Made by a program: the position numbers and the translations under genes | DNA from: Rheinheimera sp. UJ63 | GTDB taxonomy: Bacteria > Pseudomonadota > Gammaproteobacteria > Enterobacterales > Alteromonadaceae | Direction of reading: 5' to 3' | DNA: 64,000 bases | Assembly (NCBI RefSeq): GCF_021568285.1 | Contig: NZ_JAKGTQ010000004.1 | Coordinates: forward strand, 1-64,000 | Notes under the pieces: generated by a model | What the model was told of the DNA's origin: nothing | The model's input: the letters and a program-made list of their open reading frames with translations, nothing else | Database searches by the model: none | In this document: piece after piece, positions 4,530 to 34,061 of the stretch | Numbering within the stretch: position 1 is the stretch's first letter | Layout of the letters: each line of letters opens with the position of its first letter

Positions 4530-5125
4530 GCCTCAACATGAAGTTATCTGATATTGATGTCAATGATTTAGACCTAGACAATATGGGTTCTTGGCCTGTA
4601 TTGGTCAAAGCGATTTTTGCCGCTATTTTAGCGGCCTTGGTGTCAGTTATCAGTTATTACTTATTAATCGACAGTAAAATTGACGAGTTGGCGAGCGCGA
4701 AACAAAAAGAAACCGAGCTGATGCAATTGTATCAAACCCGCTATGCGGTTGCGGTGAACCTAGAAGCGTATCGCGAGCAAATGAAAGAAATGCAAGATTC
4801 ATTAGCTTTCTTATTAAAACAACTACCTACCACGTCTGAAACGCCTGGTTTGTTGGATGACATTACCTATGTTGGCACCACAAGCGGTTTAGTTTTTTCC
4901 AAAATTAACTGGGAGCCGGAAGTCGAAAAAGAATTCTACACCGAGCTGCCAATTAAGATTGATGTGACCGGCGATTACCATCAATTCGGTAACTTTGTCA
5001 GCGAAGTGGCTAAATTACCGCGTATTGTCAGTTTACATGACTTTAATATTCAAGCTGAGAAAGACGGTAAACTACGTTTTAACGTGGTCGCAAAAACCTA
5101 TCGCTATAAGGAGAACAGCCAATGA
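4526..5125 (+). CDS. pilO: Type IV pilus inner-membrane protein PilO
   Basis: Partner of PilN in the periplasmic alignment complex. It has one membrane helix at about residues 28-48, a coiled coil (about 50-95) and a C-terminal periplasmic domain. Length of 199 residues matches the family. An ATGA-type overlap joins it to pilN upstream and another to pilP downstream, so the operon is tightly coupled. GGAGG precedes the start. Confidence 0.96.
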   Translation: MSLNMKLSDIDVNDLDLDNMGSWPVLVKAIFAAILAALVSVISYYLLIDSKIDELASAKQKETELMQLYQTRYAVAVNLEAYREQMKEMQDSLAFLLKQLPTTSETPGLLDDITYVGTTSGLVFSKINWEPEVEKEFYTELPIKIDVTGDYHQFGNFVSEVAKLPRIVSLHDFNIQAEKDGKLRFNVVAKTYRYKENSQ

Positions 5126-5655
5126 GAGCCATACTGCTAGCCGGTACCTCAGTGCTGCTACTTAGCGGTTGTTTTGACAGCGTCGACCATATTCAAGCGC
5201 ATATGGATAATGTAAAAGCCAATACTCGGCAACGTATTGAACCGTTACCGCAAGTAAAAGAGTTTTCGCATATCAGTTATGCGGCGGCAAATCAGCGCAG
5301 TCCTTTTGCAGAGCCTACGCCAGAAGCAATTCAGGAACGACTCTTGCAACAACAAGATTGTTTGTATCCGGATCCTAATCGGCGCAAAGAACTGCTGGAA
5401 AGATTTGCGTTGGAAAATCTGACAATGCGCGGTACTTTAGGTGATGGCGATAAACTCTGGGGCTTGATTGAATCTGCTGACAAGTCTTTATACAGAGTAA
5501 CAATTGATAATTATTTGGGCTTATTCAGCGGCAAAGTAACCAATGTAGAGCCAACTTATATCGATTTACTGGAATTAATTCCTGATGGTTCTGGCTGCTG
5601 GGTGGAACGTGAAACACGGATCCAGATGTACGATGCTGCGACTGCAGGTAACTAG
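5122..5655 (+). CDS. pilP: Type IV pilus lipoprotein PilP
   Basis: Periplasmic lipoprotein that connects the PilN/PilO complex to the PilQ secretin. A short signal peptide ends in the lipobox LSGC with Cys17 as the predicted lipidated residue. A disordered stretch (about 20-75) precedes the C-terminal beta domain (about 90-170), as in homologues. The start overlaps the pilO stop by four bases and follows AAGGAG. Confidence 0.95.
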   Translation: MRAILLAGTSVLLLSGCFDSVDHIQAHMDNVKANTRQRIEPLPQVKEFSHISYAAANQRSPFAEPTPEAIQERLLQQQDCLYPDPNRRKELLERFALENLTMRGTLGDGDKLWGLIESADKSLYRVTIDNYLGLFSGKVTNVEPTYIDLLELIPDGSGCWVERETRIQMYDAATAGN

Positions 5656-5670
5656 GTGTGCGAGTGAATC

Positions 5671-7740
5671 ATGGATAAATTAATAAAAATTAAAAATGTA
5701 GGACGCAAAGTTAGCAGACTTGGTTTGTTATCGTGGTTATTGCTTGCTTTACCTGCTAGTGCAGCGCCCTTGCTCTACGAGGTTCGTTTCAATCCATTGC
5801 TGAATGGTGAAACTGAGATCGAGTTCGTGTTTGATGAGCCGTTGCTGCAAGAGCCAGACATCAGCTTGTTAAATGAGCCATCGCGTTTAAACGTTCGCTT
5901 TGCTGAAGCTGAGCTAGAACAGCGTATTGCTGATGTGGCGATTAATAATGCCGGCGTTAGCCGAGTGAAGTCTACCTTGTCTGAAGGTGGCATTAATGCT
6001 GTTATCAGCATGGATTCCTTAAAAGTCTACCGCACCAGACTTGATGGTAATGTCTATGCTGTGCATCTCGCCGATTCACCGCAAATTGTTAAAGCGGGTT
6101 CGACATCTGAGCTTAATCCAAGCTTTATTAATAAATTACAGGCGATTGATTTTCGTCGTGGTGATAAAGGCGAAGGCCGAATTTTAGTATTTTTAAAAGA
6201 AAATGCAGCGGCCGTTGATGTGCAAGAGCGTCTTGGCAAATTAGAAATCGAATTCTATAACACCGATATTCCCGATGAGTTACTTTATCAGCTTGATGTC
6301 GGCGATTTTGCGACTGTCGTTAAAGGTATTGAAACCTTTAAAACTAAAACCTCAACGCGTTTAGTGATTGATGCCACAGATCAGTTCACCTTTAACTATC
6401 AGCAAATCGACAATATTTTTACGGTTACTATGCAACGTGATTTGACCAGCCGGAGTATTTTAGGCGGTGGTCGTGATTATAAAGGCCGTGCTATTTCTTT
6501 GAACTTCCAAGATATTCCGGTAAGAACCGTACTACAAATTATCGCCGATTATAACGGCTTTAACTTAGTCACCAGCGATTCTGTTGTTGGCAATATTACT
6601 TTGCGCTTAGATGGTACTCCGTGGGATCAGGCCTTAGATATCGTGATGCGTGTTAAAGGCTTAGATAAGCGTATGGAAGGTAACATTCTGTTGGTGGCGC
6701 CAACGGAAGAGTTAGCTGCGCGTGAAGCGAAAGAATTAGAAGTATTACAGCGGGTGGAAGAGTTAGAGCCACTGTATTCAGATTTCTTACAAATTAATTA
6801 TGCAAAAGCCGTTGATTTAGCGCTGTTGCTATCCAATAAAGATGCAACCTTACTTTCTCCTCGCGGCAGTGTCGTCGTGGATGAACGCACCAATACCATC
6901 TTAATCAAAGATACAGCCCGTAACATTGAAAACGTCCGCAGATTAATTGAACGTTTAGATATTCCTGTACGCCAAGTCTTAATCGAATCGCGTATTGTCA
7001 CGGTAAATGATAGCGTAACGGATGAGCTTGGTATTCGTTGGGGCTTTAGTGATCAACAAAGCACCAGTGGCGGTGATCGCGGTGTCTCAGGTAATGCCAC
7101 CGGCGCTAATGGTATTTCAACGGGTGGTTTCCCAGCGTTAGATGATCGTTGGAACGTGAATTTGCCCGTTTCTAGCCCTGCTGGCAGTATTGCCTTTCAC
7201 GTTGCTCGGTTAGCTGACGGTACTTTGTTAGATCTTGAATTATCGGCGTTAGAGCAAGAGAACAAAGGTGAAGTGATTGCCAGTCCACGCATCACAACCT
7301 CTAACCAAAAAGAAGCGAGCATTGAGCAGGGTGTTGAAATCCCTTACGTGCAAGCGGCTTCCAGTGGTGCGACAACGGTAGAATTCAAGAAAGCGGTGTT
7401 GAGCTTAACGGTGACACCGCAAATCACCCCAGATAACAAGATTATTTTAGACTTAGTCATTACCCAAAATACCCGTGGTGAGACAGTACAAACGCCTACA
7501 GGCCCAGCTACGGCTATTGATACACAGCAAATTAAGACGCAAGTGTTAGCCGACAATGGTGAAACTATCGTGTTAGGCGGTATCTACCAGCAGCAAGTGG
7601 TATCAACGGTCACTAAAGTGCCGTTACTAGGTGATCTGCCTTACATGGGTGTGTTATTCCGCAACAAAAGCGAATTAAACGAGAAAAGTGAGCTGTTAAT
7701 TTTCGTTACACCGCGCATTTTGACTGAAGGCCAGCCTTAA
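5671..7740 (+). CDS. pilQ: Type IV pilus secretin PilQ
   Basis: Outer-membrane secretin through which the pilus is extruded. It has a signal peptide (about residues 1-31, ending in ASA), N-terminal AMIN domains (about 35-250), secretin N0/N1 domains (about 265-430) and the C-terminal secretin pore domain with the conserved VPLLGDLPYMGVLFR stretch near the end. Length of 689 residues is normal. It lies 15 bases after pilP and is the last gene of the operon. A long perfect hairpin follows the stop. Confidence 0.97.
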   Translation: MDKLIKIKNVGRKVSRLGLLSWLLLALPASAAPLLYEVRFNPLLNGETEIEFVFDEPLLQEPDISLLNEPSRLNVRFAEAELEQRIADVAINNAGVSRVKSTLSEGGINAVISMDSLKVYRTRLDGNVYAVHLADSPQIVKAGSTSELNPSFINKLQAIDFRRGDKGEGRILVFLKENAAAVDVQERLGKLEIEFYNTDIPDELLYQLDVGDFATVVKGIETFKTKTSTRLVIDATDQFTFNYQQIDNIFTVTMQRDLTSRSILGGGRDYKGRAISLNFQDIPVRTVLQIIADYNGFNLVTSDSVVGNITLRLDGTPWDQALDIVMRVKGLDKRMEGNILLVAPTEELAAREAKELEVLQRVEELEPLYSDFLQINYAKAVDLALLLSNKDATLLSPRGSVVVDERTNTILIKDTARNIENVRRLIERLDIPVRQVLIESRIVTVNDSVTDELGIRWGFSDQQSTSGGDRGVSGNATGANGISTGGFPALDDRWNVNLPVSSPAGSIAFHVARLADGTLLDLELSALEQENKGEVIASPRITTSNQKEASIEQGVEIPYVQAASSGATTVEFKKAVLSLTVTPQITPDNKIILDLVITQNTRGETVQTPTGPATAIDTQQIKTQVLADNGETIVLGGIYQQQVVSTVTKVPLLGDLPYMGVLFRNKSELNEKSELLIFVTPRILTEGQP

Positions 7741-21666: not shown

Positions 21667-22155
21667 TTACTTGGCTTTCGGTCTTACCGCAATCACTTCA
21701 ATTTCCACTAACATACCTGGTCGCACTAAGCCGGCAATTTGTACCGTTGAGCGCGCAGGTAAATTAGGTTGTTTCGCGGCTTCACCAAAATAGCGGGTAT
21801 AACCGCGCATAAAACCTTCGAAATCCATTTTGCCTTCTAACGCTGGATCACCGACTAAAAATGCGGTCATTTTCACGATATCAGTAATACCCATACCTTT
21901 AGATTCTAGAGAGTCTTTAATGCGCTCCATCACGCTGATGGTTTGTGCTTCGGTATCACCCCAGTACGCGGCGCTAAATTTTTCAGCATTCACATCTTTT
22001 GGCTCAGGCACCTTGCCGCTTTCATAGACAATACCATCTACTTCTACTGCCGCTGCAATCGGAAAGCTACCGCCGCCATAACGTGTGATGTCTGCGGCTA
22101 ACGCAGTATTACTTAAACCGAGTAAAAGTGAGGAAATTAACAAAGTCTTTTTCAT
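21667..22155 (-). CDS. Exported RidA-family imine deaminase
   Basis: RidA proteins hydrolyse reactive enamine and imine products of amino-acid enzymes to keto acids and ammonia. The family fold is complete, with the substrate carboxylate-binding arginine (Arg135, in LPARSTVQIAGL, equal to Arg105 of E. coli RidA). Unlike the common cytosolic RidA, this one starts with a clear Sec signal peptide (MKKTLLISSLLLGLSNTALA, cut near 20-21) and so should act in the periplasm. The ATG at 22155 has AAGGAA upstream; a longer reading to 22176 is unlikely. It is the last gene of the cluster with cytochrome c and an FAD amino-acid oxidase, 23 bases after the cytochrome. Confidence 0.88.
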   Translation of the reverse strand: MKKTLLISSLLLGLSNTALAADITRYGGGSFPIAAAVEVDGIVYESGKVPEPKDVNAEKFSAAYWGDTEAQTISVMERIKDSLESKGMGITDIVKMTAFLVGDPALEGKMDFEGFMRGYTRYFGEAAKQPNLPARSTVQIAGLVRPGMLVEIEVIAVRPKAK

Positions 22156-22178
22156 GGTGTATTCCTTATGAAGCATGA

Positions 22179-22811
22179 TTAAAGGTTAACGGTATTCAAA
22201 CTATTTATGTAACTAATGACATCTAACATATCTTGTTCTGTGGTCAGCAAGGCCACGCTTTGACGCATCAACTGGCCTGAACTATCGTCTTTAGCCGCGC
22301 CGCGTTGGCCTTGTTTAAAGCTGATTAACTGTTTATGCAGATACCAATCATTCTGACCAAGCAGTGGCGGTGCTTTTAAACTGGCGTTACCTTCAGCTTG
22401 TTGGCCATGACAGGCGGCACAGGCTTGATATAACTGCTTGCCATGCTCTTTGTTGCCGGCCAGCCTTGGCTGGGCTTGTTTTGGCGGTAAGTTTTTAATA
22501 AAGCGAATGGCCATTTCGATATCTTGCTCATTCATACTATTGGCAATCATCTGCATTTCTGAGCTGTAACTATCTTGGGGGTGTTTACCGCGCCAGCCAT
22601 GTTGAAAGCCCTGCAACTGAGCCCGTAAATACCAATCGGGTAGTACTGATAAGTTCGGGCCGCCAATCACCTCACTGCCTTGGGCATGACCACCGTGGCA
22701 GACCAAGCAATAACGGCCATCAGGTTGATTATTGCTGGTTGAGGCCGCAATGCTGACGGCGCTCTGTAAGCCTAAAACAATCAATCCTAACGTTTTAAGT
22801 AAGTGTTTCAT
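22179..22811 (-). CDS. Periplasmic diheme cytochrome c (c4-like)
   Basis: A 210-residue exported protein with a signal peptide (about 1-22) and two class I cytochrome c domains. The heme-binding motifs are CLVCH at 35-39 and CAACH at 131-135; methionines at about 86-92 and 182 are candidate axial ligands. The two domains share a W-Y-L-pattern (PDWYLRAQLQGF, NDWYLHKQLISF) typical of cytochrome c4-like tandem proteins. Its start overlaps the oxidase stop by four bases, so it is very likely the electron acceptor of that enzyme. Confidence 0.9.
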   Translation of the reverse strand: MKHLLKTLGLIVLGLQSAVSIAASTSNNQPDGRYCLVCHGGHAQGSEVIGGPNLSVLPDWYLRAQLQGFQHGWRGKHPQDSYSSEMQMIANSMNEQDIEMAIRFIKNLPPKQAQPRLAGNKEHGKQLYQACAACHGQQAEGNASLKAPPLLGQNDWYLHKQLISFKQGQRGAAKDDSSGQLMRQSVALLTTEQDMLDVISYINSLNTVNL

Positions 22812-24382
22812 GCGTTTTTAGCCTCCGTTTCACGACGTTGAATATCATTTAAAGCAAACCATGCTGATTGCACGGCGCCTTCTTGCCAACCTGAGTGATA
22901 ACTGATCTGATCGCCTATCATGTAGTGACGCCCTGCGGGTGCTTGGATTAATTTAAAGTTGGCATCGCGATCTTCTTCAGGTAAGCCGGCGCTACAGCCA
23001 AGCATATGGTTCATGCGGTGCCAGCAGACTCCGACACCGTTTTCAATTTGCTCAGGATAATTGGGGTGAATGGCTTTACCCTGTTCAATAGCGAGCGCGA
23101 CACGCTGCTCGTTATTTAATGCCGATAAGGTTTCACCTTGCTCTCTAGAGTAGGTGTAGGCACTGAGTAACACACCTTTTGCTTTGAACACGCCATGACC
23201 GGGATACCAGATCTGGGTAATCAGCTGTGTGGTCCAACTGATACCGGCATAAATATTTTCTTTTTCCCAAAAGCGCGTTTTCGCCTGCAGGCCAATTTTC
23301 GATAAATAGCCACGTCGAAATTTAGTCAGGACATTTTTATATGCCTCCGGAAAATTATTTTCGATGCCCGGCATCAGCTGAGCGGGGATACAGTTTAAGC
23401 AATAATCTGCGGTAGCGGTTTGTTGCTGACCTTGGTGTAAGTAAGTTACCGTTACCTTGGAGGGTTCTTGCTGGATCTTGGTGACCTGAGCATTTAACAG
23501 CACAGCATCTTCTAAATGCCGCATAAAGCCACTGACAATTTTGTCCATGCCGCCTACTGGGGTAAACATGGCAGGGGCTTGGTCAACGCTATATTGAAAA
23601 TGCATAGCTTGGCGCCAGTAACGGCTTTTGATCAGTTCGGTCAAATCGCGTGGTTTTTTCAGTTCACCATGCGTTAAAAAACCACCACTTAAATAGCCCG
23701 CGCGATCAGAGCCTTGGTATTGATAATTATCATCTAAATCACCCAATCCTTTAATCAGCTGTAATAATTGCTCTTGTGATAATGGCGCAGCAATCTCAGG
23801 CTGGGATAATACGCTTTTGGCGAAGATTTCTTGAATAAAGCCGTGTAAGTCGGTTTCAAACTCTTTGATCCGCACCGGTTTACCGGCAAAAGCATTAGCA
23901 TCATGGGTATAGCAATTACGGTTGTAATTACAAAACTGCTCTAGCTCAACACCCAGCTCTTGGCAATAATGCATAATACTCGTGTGTTCTGCTGGCAGTC
24001 GAGCTGGGCCAGCATTGAAATATAAATGCGGTTCGTTATCAAATTTACAGTAATGCGGATTGCCTAATTCATCAATAAAATCACCATGACGAATAGTAAT
24101 ATTACGCCCTCCCGCTCGGTGCGAGGCTTCTAAGATTTTGACATGGTAACCGGCTTTACGTAACTCATAGGCGGCGGTTAAACCGGCGATACCGGCTCCT
24201 AAGATCAGGACTGTTTTTCCGGTTTTTGCGGTGGGTTTAAGTTTTAATGTTTCTGCTTGTACATGTGCCGTACTTAATCCCAGCAAGCCAGCGGCATGCA
24301 TCACTGCGGTCAAGCCGCCCGCTTTGCCAGCAAGTTGTAAAAATTGGCGACGGTTAAGTGATGGTAACGGTATCTTTGGCAT
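22808..24382 (-). CDS. Tat-exported FAD L-amino-acid oxidase-like flavoprotein
   Basis: Flavin amine oxidase family, 524 residues. The N-terminus carries a twin-arginine signal (LNRRQFLQLAGKAGG, Arg11-Arg12), so the folded FAD protein should be exported. The dinucleotide-binding GAGIAG is at 62-67 and the GGR motif at 91-93. The segment NAGPARLPAEHTSIM aligns with the snake-venom L-amino-acid oxidase stretch GPMRLPEKH, whose arginine binds the substrate carboxylate; here it is Arg128. The C-terminal FAD motif is GDQISYHSGWQEGAVQSAW. These features favour an alpha-amino acid substrate over a simple amine. Because a cytochrome c gene overlaps it, it may act as a dehydrogenase rather than an H2O2-forming oxidase. 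The exact substrate cannot be read from the sequence. Confidence 0.86.
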   Translation of the reverse strand: MPKIPLPSLNRRQFLQLAGKAGGLTAVMHAAGLLGLSTAHVQAETLKLKPTAKTGKTVLILGAGIAGLTAAYELRKAGYHVKILEASHRAGGRNITIRHGDFIDELGNPHYCKFDNEPHLYFNAGPARLPAEHTSIMHYCQELGVELEQFCNYNRNCYTHDANAFAGKPVRIKEFETDLHGFIQEIFAKSVLSQPEIAAPLSQEQLLQLIKGLGDLDDNYQYQGSDRAGYLSGGFLTHGELKKPRDLTELIKSRYWRQAMHFQYSVDQAPAMFTPVGGMDKIVSGFMRHLEDAVLLNAQVTKIQQEPSKVTVTYLHQGQQQTATADYCLNCIPAQLMPGIENNFPEAYKNVLTKFRRGYLSKIGLQAKTRFWEKENIYAGISWTTQLITQIWYPGHGVFKAKGVLLSAYTYSREQGETLSALNNEQRVALAIEQGKAIHPNYPEQIENGVGVCWHRMNHMLGCSAGLPEEDRDANFKLIQAPAGRHYMIGDQISYHSGWQEGAVQSAWFALNDIQRRETEAKNA

Positions 24383-24457
24383 TCGGTGTTAACTCCAGTA
24401 CTATTTTTTACAGACTCAAAAGAGCAGCCTGCGCGCTCAGGCGCAGGCTGCATTGCC

Positions 24458-27130
24458 TTAAAACGTGGCGGAGAAACGCATATAGTAGTAACCACCTTGC
24501 CAGTCGACGACGGTCGCCGAGGAGTAAACACGGCCACAACAGGCATCGTATTCACTCTTTTGTGGGTAGTTATCAAAGATATTGCGTGCGCCAACGGCCA
24601 TCGTCACGATATCGGTGATGGGATAAGACAGCTCTAAATCGAAAAACCATTCTGGGTCGAATTTTTGAACCGCGTAAATGACACCACCACTGGCATCCGA
24701 GTTGTAATAAGAGCCATAGTAATTAGCACGCGCTAAGATAGTGAGGTCGGCTACCGTGTGTTTAGCGGAAAACACGCCTCGCACCCGCGGGGTTCCTCGC
24801 TCGTAGTCATATCGATCTTCTGCACTGGTCAGGTATTGGCTGGGATCTGAATCAAATTCAGTTTTGTTGTAGTTAAACGAGCCGGTAAGCGTCGTTAAGC
24901 CCCCATCCCATGGCAAGCTGTAGTTACCAACAATGTCCACACCGGTTGTGATCGAGTCAAAAGCGTTTTGGAAGTAGTAAACGCCACCGATATTTCGGGC
25001 ATCCGCTTCTGGTAAGCCCGCGCCCAATAATTTGAGGTAATTGTCATAACCTGACGCCCCTGCAACGGAAGACACATTCATGGTAGAGATGCTGTAGAAC
25101 AGATCTTGTAACTCGATACGGTAAAAATCGGTAGTTAAGGTAAAGCTGCCGTAATTTGCGGTAACCCCAAGGGTGTAGTTCGTCGATAACTCTGGTTTCA
25201 GCTCTTCTGCTCCGAGCGCCTGTGCAATAGCGCTAGAGGCTGGGAATAAGCCCGTAGCGACCGGAAAGCCGTTTGGTAAGCGTGTTGAAACGTTAGTCGT
25301 GCCTTGCTGTCCTGGGGTGGGTGCCCGGAAACCGGTGCCAATAGAGCCCCGTACGGCGTAAGTGTCGGTTAAGTCATATTTAAATGCGCCTTTCCAAACT
25401 AATTCAGAACCAAAATCTGAATAGTCTTCGAAACGTAAAGCACCTTGTAAAAATAGCGCTTCGGTAACGTGTGAGCTCACATCAACATAAACGCCGTAAG
25501 AATCACGGGTATATTTAGATGAGTTCGCTGGCGCGTAACCCGGAAAGCCGTTAGATCCCACACCCACAGTGCGATAAACCGGATCGGCTGAGTTATTACA
25601 ATCTAAGCCGTTGGCGATGGCATTAGCGAGGTTAACTGCAGAAGCCGCTGTACCGGTCCAGCTTCCGATACCACAGAATCCCCACGGATCGGGCAGCGCA
25701 TAAGGGCCTTGTGAATATGAACTTTCATCGGCAGCCGCTACGATTTCGTAGCTTTCATCCAGATAACTGGCACCAAAGGCGAGCACTAATGGGCTGTCTA
25801 AACCGCTGATGGTGAAATCTTTAACAAAGTCGGCTTGCAGTTGAAATTCTTCGTTAATTAAGTCACCCGGTTTGAATGAGGTAGGCGAGGCTGAACCCAA
25901 TGACGGGTTAATGGTGTTATTCAGGCTGTACTGAATTTCACTATGGCCCATACGTGCCGTAACATCGTAAGAAATGTCATTTGCCAACATGCCTTCTAGG
26001 CCGGTGGTGAACGAGTAGTCGTAAACTTCACCGGTAAAACGTGGGGTAAATCCGCCGGGGAACTTTTCTAAAGGTGAGTAAATTGTGCCATCTTCTTCCC
26101 TGAGGTTTTCAATAGTACCGTTGCCTGGGTAGCGATAGAAAAATACCCCTGTGGCTTCACTTTTTGAGTAGTTACCAAAGGCATAAATCTTGGTGTCATC
26201 ATTGATATCATAGCCAGAGTTAAAAAAGATGCGGGTGGCTTCTGATTCAGGTTGGCCCCAAGGTTGAACCACACCTAAACCTGCTTCATTTGCCGCGGCA
26301 ACGCCAGCTAAAAAAGCGGGGTCGTTTAAATACTGTGCATAACTGGCGTTAGGGTTAAAAACGGGGTTGTCGGTATCTAAACAAAAATAACTTTCACAGT
26401 ATTGCTCTGAACGACTGGTGGCGTCGGCATTAGCCAGCTCTGCTGATAAGCTAAAAAAGCCTTTATCGCCTAAAGAAAAACCGATGTTGCCGGCAACCGT
26501 GATACTTTCACCATCGCCCTCAAAGTATTGGCCATAGTCAACCGACAGACTGCCACCTTCGCTATTGTCTTTTAAACGAAAGTTGATCACACCCGCAATC
26601 GCATCTGAACCGTATTGTGCCGCTGCGCCATCGCGCAGTACTTCAACACCTTTTAACGCAGAAACGGGGATCGTTGCGATATCAGGGCCTTGTGTGCCTG
26701 AGCCACCGGTTGATACTACGGCAGAGCGATGTCGTCTTTTGCTGTTCACTAACACCAGCGTTTTATCTGTGGGCAAACCGCGCAGTGATGCGGGTCTAAC
26801 AAAGGTGCCACCATCAGAGATCGGCTGACGTGACAAAGAATAAGACGGTACCAGTGTTTTTAACACATCGTTGGTATCGGTAAAGGCAACGCCGCTCAGA
26901 TCCTCTTCTGAAAACACGTCAATAGGTACAGGTGAATCGGCTACCGTCCTTGGTGCACCCCGAACGCCGGTCACAATCAGTTTTTCAATCGGTGCACTTT
27001 GCATCGCAGCCGCCACCACACTTTCGTCGGCATAAGCGGCATGATTAAAACTGATGGACAAGAAAGTTGCGCTGGCCGTAACGGGCAAGGCAATTCGAAT
27101 GGCACGGGTTATTTTATTAAACATTGTCAT
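24458..27130 (-). CDS. TonB-dependent outer-membrane receptor
   Basis: An 890-residue receptor with a signal peptide (about 1-34), a plug domain (about 60-175, including LRGLPTDKTLVLVNSKRRH and VEVLRDGAAAQYGSDAIAGV) and a 22-strand-type barrel ending in Phe (YYYMRFSATF). The plug subtype resembles receptors for peptides, sugars or other organic nutrients rather than siderophore receptors, but the ligand is not identifiable. It is the first gene of a minus-strand cluster with the FAD oxidase, cytochrome c and RidA, with a 75-base gap to the oxidase, so it probably imports the oxidase substrate. Confidence 0.92.
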   Translation of the reverse strand: MTMFNKITRAIRIALPVTASATFLSISFNHAAYADESVVAAAMQSAPIEKLIVTGVRGAPRTVADSPVPIDVFSEEDLSGVAFTDTNDVLKTLVPSYSLSRQPISDGGTFVRPASLRGLPTDKTLVLVNSKRRHRSAVVSTGGSGTQGPDIATIPVSALKGVEVLRDGAAAQYGSDAIAGVINFRLKDNSEGGSLSVDYGQYFEGDGESITVAGNIGFSLGDKGFFSLSAELANADATSRSEQYCESYFCLDTDNPVFNPNASYAQYLNDPAFLAGVAAANEAGLGVVQPWGQPESEATRIFFNSGYDINDDTKIYAFGNYSKSEATGVFFYRYPGNGTIENLREEDGTIYSPLEKFPGGFTPRFTGEVYDYSFTTGLEGMLANDISYDVTARMGHSEIQYSLNNTINPSLGSASPTSFKPGDLINEEFQLQADFVKDFTISGLDSPLVLAFGASYLDESYEIVAAADESSYSQGPYALPDPWGFCGIGSWTGTAASAVNLANAIANGLDCNNSADPVYRTVGVGSNGFPGYAPANSSKYTRDSYGVYVDVSSHVTEALFLQGALRFEDYSDFGSELVWKGAFKYDLTDTYAVRGSIGTGFRAPTPGQQGTTNVSTRLPNGFPVATGLFPASSAIAQALGAEELKPELSTNYTLGVTANYGSFTLTTDFYRIELQDLFYSISTMNVSSVAGASGYDNYLKLLGAGLPEADARNIGGVYYFQNAFDSITTGVDIVGNYSLPWDGGLTTLTGSFNYNKTEFDSDPSQYLTSAEDRYDYERGTPRVRGVFSAKHTVADLTILARANYYGSYYNSDASGGVIYAVQKFDPEWFFDLELSYPITDIVTMAVGARNIFDNYPQKSEYDACCGRVYSSATVVDWQGGYYYMRFSATF

Positions 27131-27561
27131 GGTAGCACCCCAGATATCATGTTATGGCGTAAGTAAAGCGGTGCTGCAGGGCAGCCTTATCTGTCTGGAA
27201 TGTCTAAAAAAGTGTCAGCATCTATTGTTTTTATTGTGTTCGTTTTTGTGTTTTTTATCGGAACGAACTGTGCTAACTCATTTCATCCTAACGAATGAAT
27301 TTTCGCTGCGGAAACATTTAAAATATGGAGGGGGTATAGCATTTTCTTATAGCTCATGCTGGGTAACATTATGGTTTAACTGTATTTTTTAGGTAACGAA
27401 TTGTTAATAACCTGCTGAAGGCGATTGCACCAAGATAGCGCTTAATTAGCTGGGCCTGAAATTTGCATATTTAGGGTACAACGCATGATGAGCGGAAAAG
27501 TGTATGGCAAAACCAGCCTTATTTGCACACATGCAGTGAACTTGCGAAAGAGAGAAAAGCA
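27131..27561. other. Divergent regulatory gap, TonB receptor / LysR
   Basis: This 431-base stretch separates the divergent receptor cluster and LysR gene. It is AT-rich around 27290-27410 and must hold both promoters and probably the LysR sites. I see no confident -35/-10 pair, no long inverted repeat and no RNA gene. Open frames here are short and have no coding character. Confidence 0.4.
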
Positions 27562-28506
27562 GTGAACCTGAAGCAACTTCGCTATTTTATCGTCACTGCC
27601 GATTACGGCAGCATTGCCAGTGCCGCTCGCGCGCTTGATGTAGCGCAGCCCGCTGTCAGCCAACAATTAGCTAATTTAGAGCATGAGTTAAAATCCACTT
27701 TATTGATGCGCAACTATCGCGGCGTAACGCTAACCGCGAGCGGTCAGGTGTTTTATGACTATGCCACTGAAGTACTACAGCAATTTAATAGCGTGCGCTT
27801 ACAAATTCATGAATTAGAGCAGAATTTACGTGGTGCTATTGTCATCGGCATGACTCAGGCGGTGTGTAATATCCTTGCCGCGCCGTTACAGCTGGCTTTG
27901 CAGCAGCATAATCCTGATATTGAGCTCATTATTAATACGGCACAATCTAGCACGTTACAACGCTGGTTAGAGCAAGGCGAAGTGGATTTAGTTATCAGTT
28001 ATCTAGCCTTAGATAATCACAAAAGTTGCCGAACGGTGCCGTTGCTTGAAGAGCGGTTCTTTTTGGTGTTCAGTGGCCAAGTTAAAGCGCAGCACCGTTT
28101 TTTAGCCCGCAATAAACTGCTACCGTTTCAACGCTTGGCTGAATTTGAAATCTCTGTGCCGAACCAACGTAGTGCATTATGGGAGATATTGCACAGATAT
28201 GAAGCAGAAACAGGTGTTAAACTTATGTATAAAAATTCGGTTGGCCAACTGATTACCGGCTTGCCACAGATGATTGAACAAGGGCAAGTGTTCATCCTAC
28301 CTTCACCGGCGTTCTATCAGTTAGTGGGTAAACAGCTGCTGTATGCCTTGCCCATAGCCGATCCTGACGTGACCGCAACCATTGCGCTGCTCAGTTCGTT
28401 AAATCGGCCTTTCACTCCGATCATGGAGCAAGTGCAGCAATTGATCGTCACCGAAGTAAAAAATTTACACAATAAGGGGCACTGGCAGGGCAACTTGCTA
28501 TGCTAA
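27562..28506 (+). CDS. LysR-family transcriptional regulator
   Basis: A DNA-binding regulator with an N-terminal winged helix-turn-helix (LKQLRYFIVTADYGSIASAA, ALDVAQPAVSQQLANLE) and a C-terminal effector-binding domain (about 90-300). The frame can be extended to 27523, but the family nearly always begins at the M-N-L-K-Q-L-R-Y-F position, which is a GTG at 27562 with a purine-rich stretch upstream. It is divergent from the TonB receptor cluster, so it likely controls that cluster in response to the substrate or a product. Confidence 0.9.
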   Translation: MNLKQLRYFIVTADYGSIASAARALDVAQPAVSQQLANLEHELKSTLLMRNYRGVTLTASGQVFYDYATEVLQQFNSVRLQIHELEQNLRGAIVIGMTQAVCNILAAPLQLALQQHNPDIELIINTAQSSTLQRWLEQGEVDLVISYLALDNHKSCRTVPLLEERFFLVFSGQVKAQHRFLARNKLLPFQRLAEFEISVPNQRSALWEILHRYEAETGVKLMYKNSVGQLITGLPQMIEQGQVFILPSPAFYQLVGKQLLYALPIADPDVTATIALLSSLNRPFTPIMEQVQQLIVTEVKNLHNKGHWQGNLLC

Positions 28507-33251: not shown

Positions 33252-34061
33252 TTAGTTAAGGGGTTTGCGGAATTTTAACGTCATGCGATCGCTTTCGCCG
33301 ATAGCTTGATATTTTGCTCTATCTTGTTCACCTAAACGTAAAGTGGGTGGCAAAGTCCACACACCTGAAGGGTGGTTGGCAGTATCTTTGGCGTTGGCAT
33401 TGATTTCGCTGCTGCCTTCAAATACAAAACCCGCTTGCTCGGCTAAACGCACCGCCATGCTTTGTGGCATGTAACCGCTGCGTGTCCATTCGGTGTTTAA
33501 TTGGCTTTCAGGTAAGCGGTGTTCAACCACACCTAATACGCCACCTGGTTTTAATGCGGTAAAAAACTGCTTATAGGCTGCAACCAGCGCGTCTTCACCA
33601 CCGCCAATATACCAATTGTGTAAATTACGGAAGGTTAATACCACATCGGCTGAGTTAGCAGGAGCAATGGTAACACCGCCAGCAGCGGAAAACTCGGTGA
33701 CCTGAACTTTACTGTATTGTGGTTGGCTCGCCATTTTTTCGATAAAGGCTGTGCGGCTACGCTGACCATATTCTGACGAGTTGGCTGGAAAATGTGCCGC
33801 ATAGTACATGCCTTTTTCAGCAACGAGTGGCGCGATAATTTCCGTGTACCAACCGCCGCCGGGAGAGATTTCAACAACGGTGCTTTGTGGCGTAACGTCA
33901 AAAAAGGCCAAGGTAGCGACCGGATTGCGGTATTGATCACGCTGTATATATTCAGGTGTACGTAGCGGATTTTTTACGGCGGTTTCTAAAGCTTCATTTG
34001 CGGCAAGTGGCAAGCTGCATAATAAAGCAGTCAGGCTTAATATTTTGCTGAAACGTAACAT
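33252..34061 (-). CDS. Predicted exported SAM-methyltransferase-fold protein
   Basis: A 269-residue protein with a Sec signal peptide (about 1-21, ending LAANE) followed by a class I methyltransferase-like Rossmann domain. The motif I analogue is VVEISPGGGWYTEI near residue 62, and ALKPGGVLGVVEHR matches the post-motif region. Exported members of this family are seen in Alteromonadales and related groups, but what they bind or modify is unknown, since SAM is not expected in the periplasm. AAGGAG precedes the ATG. It lies 20 bases upstream of purD. Confidence 0.78.
   Translation of the reverse strand: MLRFSKILSLTALLCSLPLAANEALETAVKNPLRTPEYIQRDQYRNPVATLAFFDVTPQSTVVEISPGGGWYTEIIAPLVAEKGMYYAAHFPANSSEYGQRSRTAFIEKMASQPQYSKVQVTEFSAAGGVTIAPANSADVVLTFRNLHNWYIGGGEDALVAAYKQFFTALKPGGVLGVVEHRLPESQLNTEWTRSGYMPQSMAVRLAEQAGFVFEGSSEINANAKDTANHPSGVWTLPPTLRLGEQDRAKYQAIGESDRMTLKFRKPLN

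Follow-up and report, generated by a model that had tools for sequence, protein, structure and literature searches.

Rheinheimera sp. UJ63 is predicted to export an imine deaminase of the Rid3 subfamily, and this protein probably (at a likelihood of roughly 70%) serves as the third component of a periplasmic amino-acid dehydrogenase, alongside a flavoenzyme with a twin-arginine (Tat) leader and a dihaem cytochrome c. The genes lie in the window, that is, the whole stretch of 64,000 nucleotides that was analysed (contig NZ_JAKGTQ010000004.1, positions 1 to 64,000). In the proposed mechanism, the Tat-exported FAD enzyme would oxidise an L-amino acid, or a related alpha-amino compound, by removing a hydride at the alpha carbon, and would release a 2-imino acid. 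The reduced flavin would be reoxidised mainly by the dihaem cytochrome c, which would pass electrons to a terminal oxidase. Rid3, exported through Sec to the periplasm, would speed hydrolysis of the imino acid to a keto acid and ammonium, pulling the reaction forward and keeping the reactive imine off other periplasmic molecules. A TonB-dependent receptor may import the substrate or a substrate precursor. For this module, the sequences show protein family, leader types, conserved catalytic residues, and gene order with its conservation; that the proteins are really exported, which electron acceptor and substrate they use, and that the three are coupled is what we infer. Imino acids also hydrolyse spontaneously, and the need for a deaminase is therefore not proven. 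The features concerned are:

21667 to 22155, minus strand: Rid3-type imine deaminase, predicted exported, 162 aa (PF01042 and nearest PDB sequences)
22093 to 22155, minus strand: predicted Sec-type signal peptide MKKTLLISSLLLGLSNTALA, cleavage before A (sequence; leader in 55 of 57 intact relatives)
22179 to 22811, minus strand: dihaem c-type cytochrome with a Sec-type leader (PF00034, E 5e-20; nearest PDB entry cytochrome c4)
22808 to 24382, minus strand: FAD L-amino-acid-oxidase-like enzyme with a twin-arginine leader (PF01593, E 1.6e-35; Rhodococcus opacus L-amino acid oxidase 2jae, 3.1e-71)
24424 to 24451, minus strand: terminator-like hairpin of 11 pairs, 9 of them G-C, in the receptor-oxidase gap (consensus scan)
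24458 to 27130, minus strand: TonB-dependent receptor, upstream in the same direction (PF00593, 3.2e-32; PF07715, 2e-16)
27523 to 28506, plus strand: LysR-family regulator, divergent from the receptor gene (PF00126, PF03466)

The Rid gene runs from an ATG at 22155 to a stop at 21667, as in the first-pass annotation, and AAGGA stands 7 nt before the ATG, which bears out the good ribosome-binding site reported there. An in-frame ATG at 22176 is an alternative start that would add seven residues and retain the leader. The 162-residue product matches the Pfam family Ribonuc_L-PSP (PF01042) with an E value of 1.9e-17 and 63.9 bits (cut-off 27.3). Its AlphaFold2 model has a mean pLDDT of 86.7, lower in the leader, and the best solved folds are those of PFL1385 (9bkc) and PSPTO3006 (9bka). 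The active-site arginine, already noted as kept, is R135, which we take to occupy the position of R105 in RidA; it is invariant in all 23 aligned sequences, as are E151 and E153.

The first-pass name RidA holds as regards the Rid family and the catalytic arginine, but on sequence grounds the protein is a member of Rid3 and not an archetypal RidA. It scores 52.5 bits against NCBIfam TIGR00004, the model for archetypal RidA, where the cut-off is 106.25. Its two best PDB sequence matches are the Rid3 proteins PFL1385 (5e-29) and PSPTO3006 (2.2e-25). Rid3 is marked by retention of the arginine and glutamate and replacement of the RidA tyrosine by isoleucine (PMC4433059; here and below, papers given by PMC number are cited from the portions of their text that were available). 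The window protein has R135, E151/E153, and I33, the last also invariant in 23/23 sequences, E151/E153 and I33 having been matched to RidA positions by reading the sequences. In a 56-row tree, from which twelve near-duplicate or problem rows were excluded, a single starred group of 48 rows (96/93) unites PFL1385 and PSPTO3006 with the exported-type proteins. The eight other Rid rows fall outside it; own_L047 is a long branch of unsure placement. The same genome encodes two further Rid proteins, found by family search, both of which lack a leader, the fold being only a few residues from the start. One adjoins an ORF that reads as SpoT/RelA-like, and the other is short. In the same tree, the Rid protein from a contig titled as a Klebsiella pneumoniae MAG (L018) pairs with that of an uncultured Cellvibrionales genome (100/98), so the Klebsiella label may be wrong.

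Relatives were gathered in two ways. A scan of GTDB genome contigs with the Rid protein gave 45 loci; L001-L036, the 36 close relatives, were taken into the analysis, and nine partial matches at 31-35% identity (L037-L045) were dropped. Five more (L053-L057) were left out because each encodes the very same Rid protein as another locus (L002, L001, L003, L006, and L007, respectively); L053, from a genome of the same genus, thereby matches Rheinheimera pacifica BIGb0367 (L002). A phylum survey of 398 genomes found matches at 1e-25 in 25 of them, the window's own included, at 26 places. Leaving aside the window's own, the relatives occupy 61 places, and removal of four truncated ones (L014, L034, L036, and L107) left 57 intact. 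The named relatives span proteobacteria, presumably of the gamma, beta, and alpha classes, and Campylobacterota MAGs. The comparison set comprised the 30 best-scoring of many PF01042 matches plus the two Rid paralogues of the same genome (n = 32), and consequently represents archetypal RidA and not the full range of Rid subfamilies; contig ends truncate at least two of the 30 loci.

Archetypal Rid proteins are cytosolic. The window protein begins instead with a predicted Sec signal peptide ahead of the fold, much as the first reading had it: residues 1 to about 20-21 comprise an n-region with KK, the hydrophobic core LLISSLLLGL, and an ALA/A cleavage-type motif, and the fold follows directly. 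Signal peptides were called by a rule of our own, which is cruder than SignalP. Its first version flagged 6/32 control proteins because hydrophobic strands within the fold were counted, and it was therefore tightened to demand that at least 15 leader residues precede the fold. When the start is chosen automatically, 53 of the 57 intact relatives satisfy the rule, a number that rises to 54 once other plausible starts are admitted. Two proteins, L092 and L097, failed because an internal start had been picked; L097 passes with another start, while L092 (the same place as L067) has a leader that is clear by eye only, bringing the total to 55/57. The control leaders are 1-10 residues long, so by length none could pass the tightened rule. 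Across 22 relatives, the leader shares 27% identity with that of the window, as against 59% for the rest of the protein, yet its hydrophobicity is retained. The search of Rid families for signal peptides suggested in the first-pass annotation thus shows that the window protein is no isolated oddity.

Some relatives depart from this pattern. In L101 and L102, the intact Rid3 genes lack a leader while the neighbouring flavoenzyme has a Tat-like RR motif; a nearby haem-c gene was not found. These two Rid proteins resemble PSPTO_3006 and come from the same class; they could possibly be exported as Tat passengers or have returned to the cytoplasm. Lipobox-like motifs (such as LLTGC, NVTGC, and AIGAC) occur in the exported-type proteins of L022, L087, L089, L094, and L096, and their sequence suggests lipoprotein forms. 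Elsewhere in the window (33252 to 34061, minus strand), a protein that reads as methyltransferase-like carries the apparent signal peptide MLRFSKILSLTALLCSLPLAANE, and is thus another normally cytosolic enzyme type bearing an apparent export signal.

Upstream of the Rid gene lie the two proposed partners. The cytochrome has two CxxCH motifs, candidate methionine ligands (M86 and M182) that are invariant in 11 aligned rows, and a hydrophobic Sec-type leader called by reading. The flavoenzyme has a Tat-type leader (LNRRQFLQL), in which R11 and R12 are invariant in 19/19 aligned rows (L022 not being among them). Its closest solved structure is the L-amino acid oxidase (LAAO) of Rhodococcus opacus; the model (pLDDT 88.1) finds its best fold matches in 2jae and 2jb1 (TM 0.93 by target). 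Residues R128, Y409, and W499 align with R84, Y371, and W467 of that enzyme (one lower in the printed chain index), which we take to be substrate-site residues, R84 and Y371 presumably binding the carboxylate. The oxidase gene runs 4 nt into the cytochrome gene, and the Rid start lies 23 nt past the cytochrome stop. The genome encodes TatC and two COX1-family matches, and therefore routes for export and for electrons exist.

A Tat leader together with an adjacent Sec cytochrome c predicts a cytochrome-using dehydrogenase among many FAD amine oxidoreductases (PMC12224317), and both signposts are present here. A flavoenzyme of the imine-making type with a Tat leader and a secreted-type cytochrome, conserved upstream of Rid in many genomes, lend support to the earlier suggestion of imine chemistry outside the cytoplasm, as far as sequence can indicate it. 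The imine step has a precedent as well: the Rid3 proteins PFL_1385 and PSPTO_3006 intercept imines from L-amino acid oxidase, lowering semicarbazone formation with Leu, Gln, Phe, Met, and His (for Leu, from 46 to 2) (PMC5619798). In the same study, a ridA mutant was rescued by four of the six Rid plasmids tried, irrespective of subfamily.

Examination of the neighbours of related Rid genes, likewise raised at the first pass, shows that the association is widespread. In 52 of the 57 intact relatives, a flavoenzyme gene with the orientation of the Rid gene lies no more than 3 kb away, and in 44 a haem-c gene is present as well. A twin-arginine motif ahead of the FAD motif is listed for 49 of the 52 linked flavoenzymes and is also seen in L016 and L100 (an alternative count of 50 takes KR in L016); in L022, where the gene frame is incomplete, no such motif was found. 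A haem-c gene was not found nearby in 8/52 of the flavoenzyme-linked relatives, and no LAAO-like gene lies within 3 kb at L010, L021, L103, L104b (a second Rid gene), and L105 (intact, exported-type Rid). These eight and five cases indicate that neither partner is obligatory and that the trio is a common but not the sole arrangement. It is also patchy, occurring in 6/31 genomes of a near-relative search, the window's own included. LAAO-like matches lie within 1.5 kb of 0/32 control Rid loci, as against 22/26 Rid3 survey loci (the window's included), although the control asked for LAAO-like genes only and would miss other amine oxidases. The corresponding figures for a haem-c ORF are 1/32 and 17/26 (again including the window's). 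RidA genes, too, are often near FAD amine oxidase genes (PMC4433059).

Fusions of cytochrome c with Rid were also considered, as five survey matches with open frames of 324-398 residues looked fused. They were rejected: in L068 and L079, the part of the frame that precedes the Rid start is nonsense on reading, and at the places of L103, L104b, and L106, the leaders are ordinary and no haem-c gene was found near. Only in L028 (Chromatocurvus halotolerans, 5059 to 6402) do the cytochrome c and Rid share one frame without a stop, which would leave the Rid leader internal. The two may be naturally fused, there may be dual starts, or the shared frame may be due to a sequencing frameshift.

The nature of the substrate leaves most room for an alternative, albeit a tentative one, namely that the module acts on an amine or an opine- or siderophore-like compound imported by the TonB receptor, and on no plain amino acid. 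The receptor heads the genes in the window and in 12 Rheinheimera-type loci, and could possibly be the substrate importer. Between the window and L001-L009, L011, L012, and L035, it has diverged more (36-37% identity) than the flavoenzyme (56-59%), which hints at a changed ligand. Yet the residues aligned to the presumed carboxylate-binding Arg and Tyr of LAAO are kept, 15 of the loci L001-L036 (36 in all) have a receptor match, which at 12 is arranged as here, and in the window the terminator-like hairpin separates the receptor from the enzyme. The hairpin sits in the 75-nt receptor-oxidase gap, so the receptor is perhaps only partly co-transcribed, and receptor and enzyme levels may be unequal. 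The hairpin itself is suggestive only, since the region holds 13 terminator-like sites against a shuffled mean of 7.4 (sd 3.1). The divergent LysR gene is, by its position, a candidate regulator of the module.

The identity of the electron acceptor bears on a less probable reading, in which the flavoenzyme is a true oxidase that makes hydrogen peroxide outside the cytoplasm for nutritional or antimicrobial ends, Rid3 does no more than clear away the imine, and the cytochrome has some other function. The solved structures that come closest to the flavoenzyme are indeed oxidases, eight linked loci have no nearby haem-c gene, and fast reaction with oxygen was found for most of the Tat flavoenzymes tested that have no cytochrome gene (PMC12224317). 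The flavin-side lysine K362 is invariant in the aligned flavoenzymes, but it is present in the oxidase 2jae too and is therefore no evidence against oxygen use. Against a true oxidase stand the presence of a haem-c gene near the flavoenzyme in 44/52 linked relatives and the 4-nt gene overlap in the window.

A role for the exported Rid as a structural subunit, stabilising the flavoenzyme and not acting as a catalyst, is similarly unlikely. Such an arrangement has a precedent in Chlamydomonas, where a periplasmic complex joins an LAAO (M-alpha) to a non-catalytic RidA (M-beta), as recounted in PMC5053998, and the Rid and flavoenzyme genes are near each other in 52/57 relatives. The catalytic arginine and glutamate positions are nevertheless invariant in 23/23 aligned sequences, and Rid3 relatives are active in vitro without their own partner (PMC5619798). 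Structural and catalytic roles are in any case not exclusive. A non-functional leader and a Rid that acts in the cytoplasm are very improbable: two Rid3 relatives lack a leader, but it is kept in 55/57 despite low identity, with lipobox-like variants in some, and both partners carry Tat- or Sec-type leaders.

The periplasmic dehydrogenase with an exported Rid3, which remains the preferred reading, can be set beside several known systems. The lao-cccA-ridA unit of Gluconacetobacter diazotrophicus PAL5 contains the same three genes; its LAAO is predicted to be Tat-exported, as is that of the window, and the authors propose that cytochrome c and RidA assist it (PMC5053998). Insertions in lao, which also lowered cccA and ridA transcripts, abolished production of indole-3-acetic acid (IAA) from Trp, and cytochrome c maturation (ccm) mutants cited by those authors make 5% of normal IAA (PMC5053998). 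In the available text, a signal peptide is discussed for LAAO but not for RidA, and no TonB receptor is mentioned (PMC5053998). The Rid3 proteins PFL_1385 and PSPTO_3006 (PMC4433059, PMC5619798; PDB 9bkc and 9bka) share with the window protein the arginine, the isoleucine for tyrosine, the closest sequences and folds, and a clade, although PSPTO_3006-type members, unlike the window protein, lack a leader. The accessible parts of PMC4433059 make no mention of a signal peptide or periplasm, nor do those of PMC5619798 mention a signal or periplasm. The NicA2/Pnao-type amine dehydrogenases that work with CycN likewise combine a Tat-leader flavoenzyme with an adjacent Sec cytochrome c, whereas the window flavoenzyme is LAAO-like and paired with Rid, which goes unmentioned in the available text of PMC12224317. 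Periplasmic LAO1 of Chlamydomonas, with LAO2/RIDA, offers a similar extracytoplasmic pairing of LAAO and RidA, but is a eukaryotic oxidase that forms hydrogen peroxide, unlike the module proposed here; in the text available, the sole mention of cytochrome c concerns the Gluconacetobacter cluster (PMC10805672). Neither RidA nor a cytochrome is mentioned in the parts of the Pseudoalteromonas FAD LAAO paper at hand (PMC6316408), and the pathway of OngD, a RidA of chitin oxidation, is placed in the cytoplasm (PMC9537276). The name laoABCR, considered as that of an amino-acid system, was dropped, as a literature search gave papers on SDS and alkane degradation.

The gene trio, the clustering of Rid3 with amine oxidases, and the action of Rid3 on LAAO imines are thus already published. 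No statement that bacterial Rid3 proteins are exported was found in the open-access literature (most subscription papers lie outside the search), and the leader is apparently a general Rid3 property that has so far been overlooked. A broader reading, which we regard as evenly poised, is that the entire Rid3 subfamily is dedicated to deaminating imines outside the cytoplasm, having evolved to supply the hydrolytic third component of respiratory amino-acid dehydrogenases, together with a Tat flavoenzyme and a secreted cytochrome c. Under this reading, Rid3 would be exported by Sec, and the leader would have been lost once, later, in the lineage of PSPTO_3006, whose Rid may be cytoplasmic again or may be carried through Tat by the flavoenzyme. 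The three leaderless rows of the tree nest as a single group (100/99), which fits one loss; the leader labels of the two PDB rows are our own, that of PFL1385 ("with") coming from an incomplete chain and that of PSPTO3006 ("without") from its chain and its resemblance to L101/L102.

The best-known task of Rid proteins is to protect PLP enzymes in the cytosol. If Rid3 is periplasmic, its role is likelier to be another, such as driving a dehydrogenase that releases imines or protecting envelope proteins. Rid3 would then be a predictable third part of the recently recognised cytochrome-using amine dehydrogenases, and would provide a simple genomic marker for extracytoplasmic respiration fuelled by amino acids, including routes to indole-3-acetic acid.
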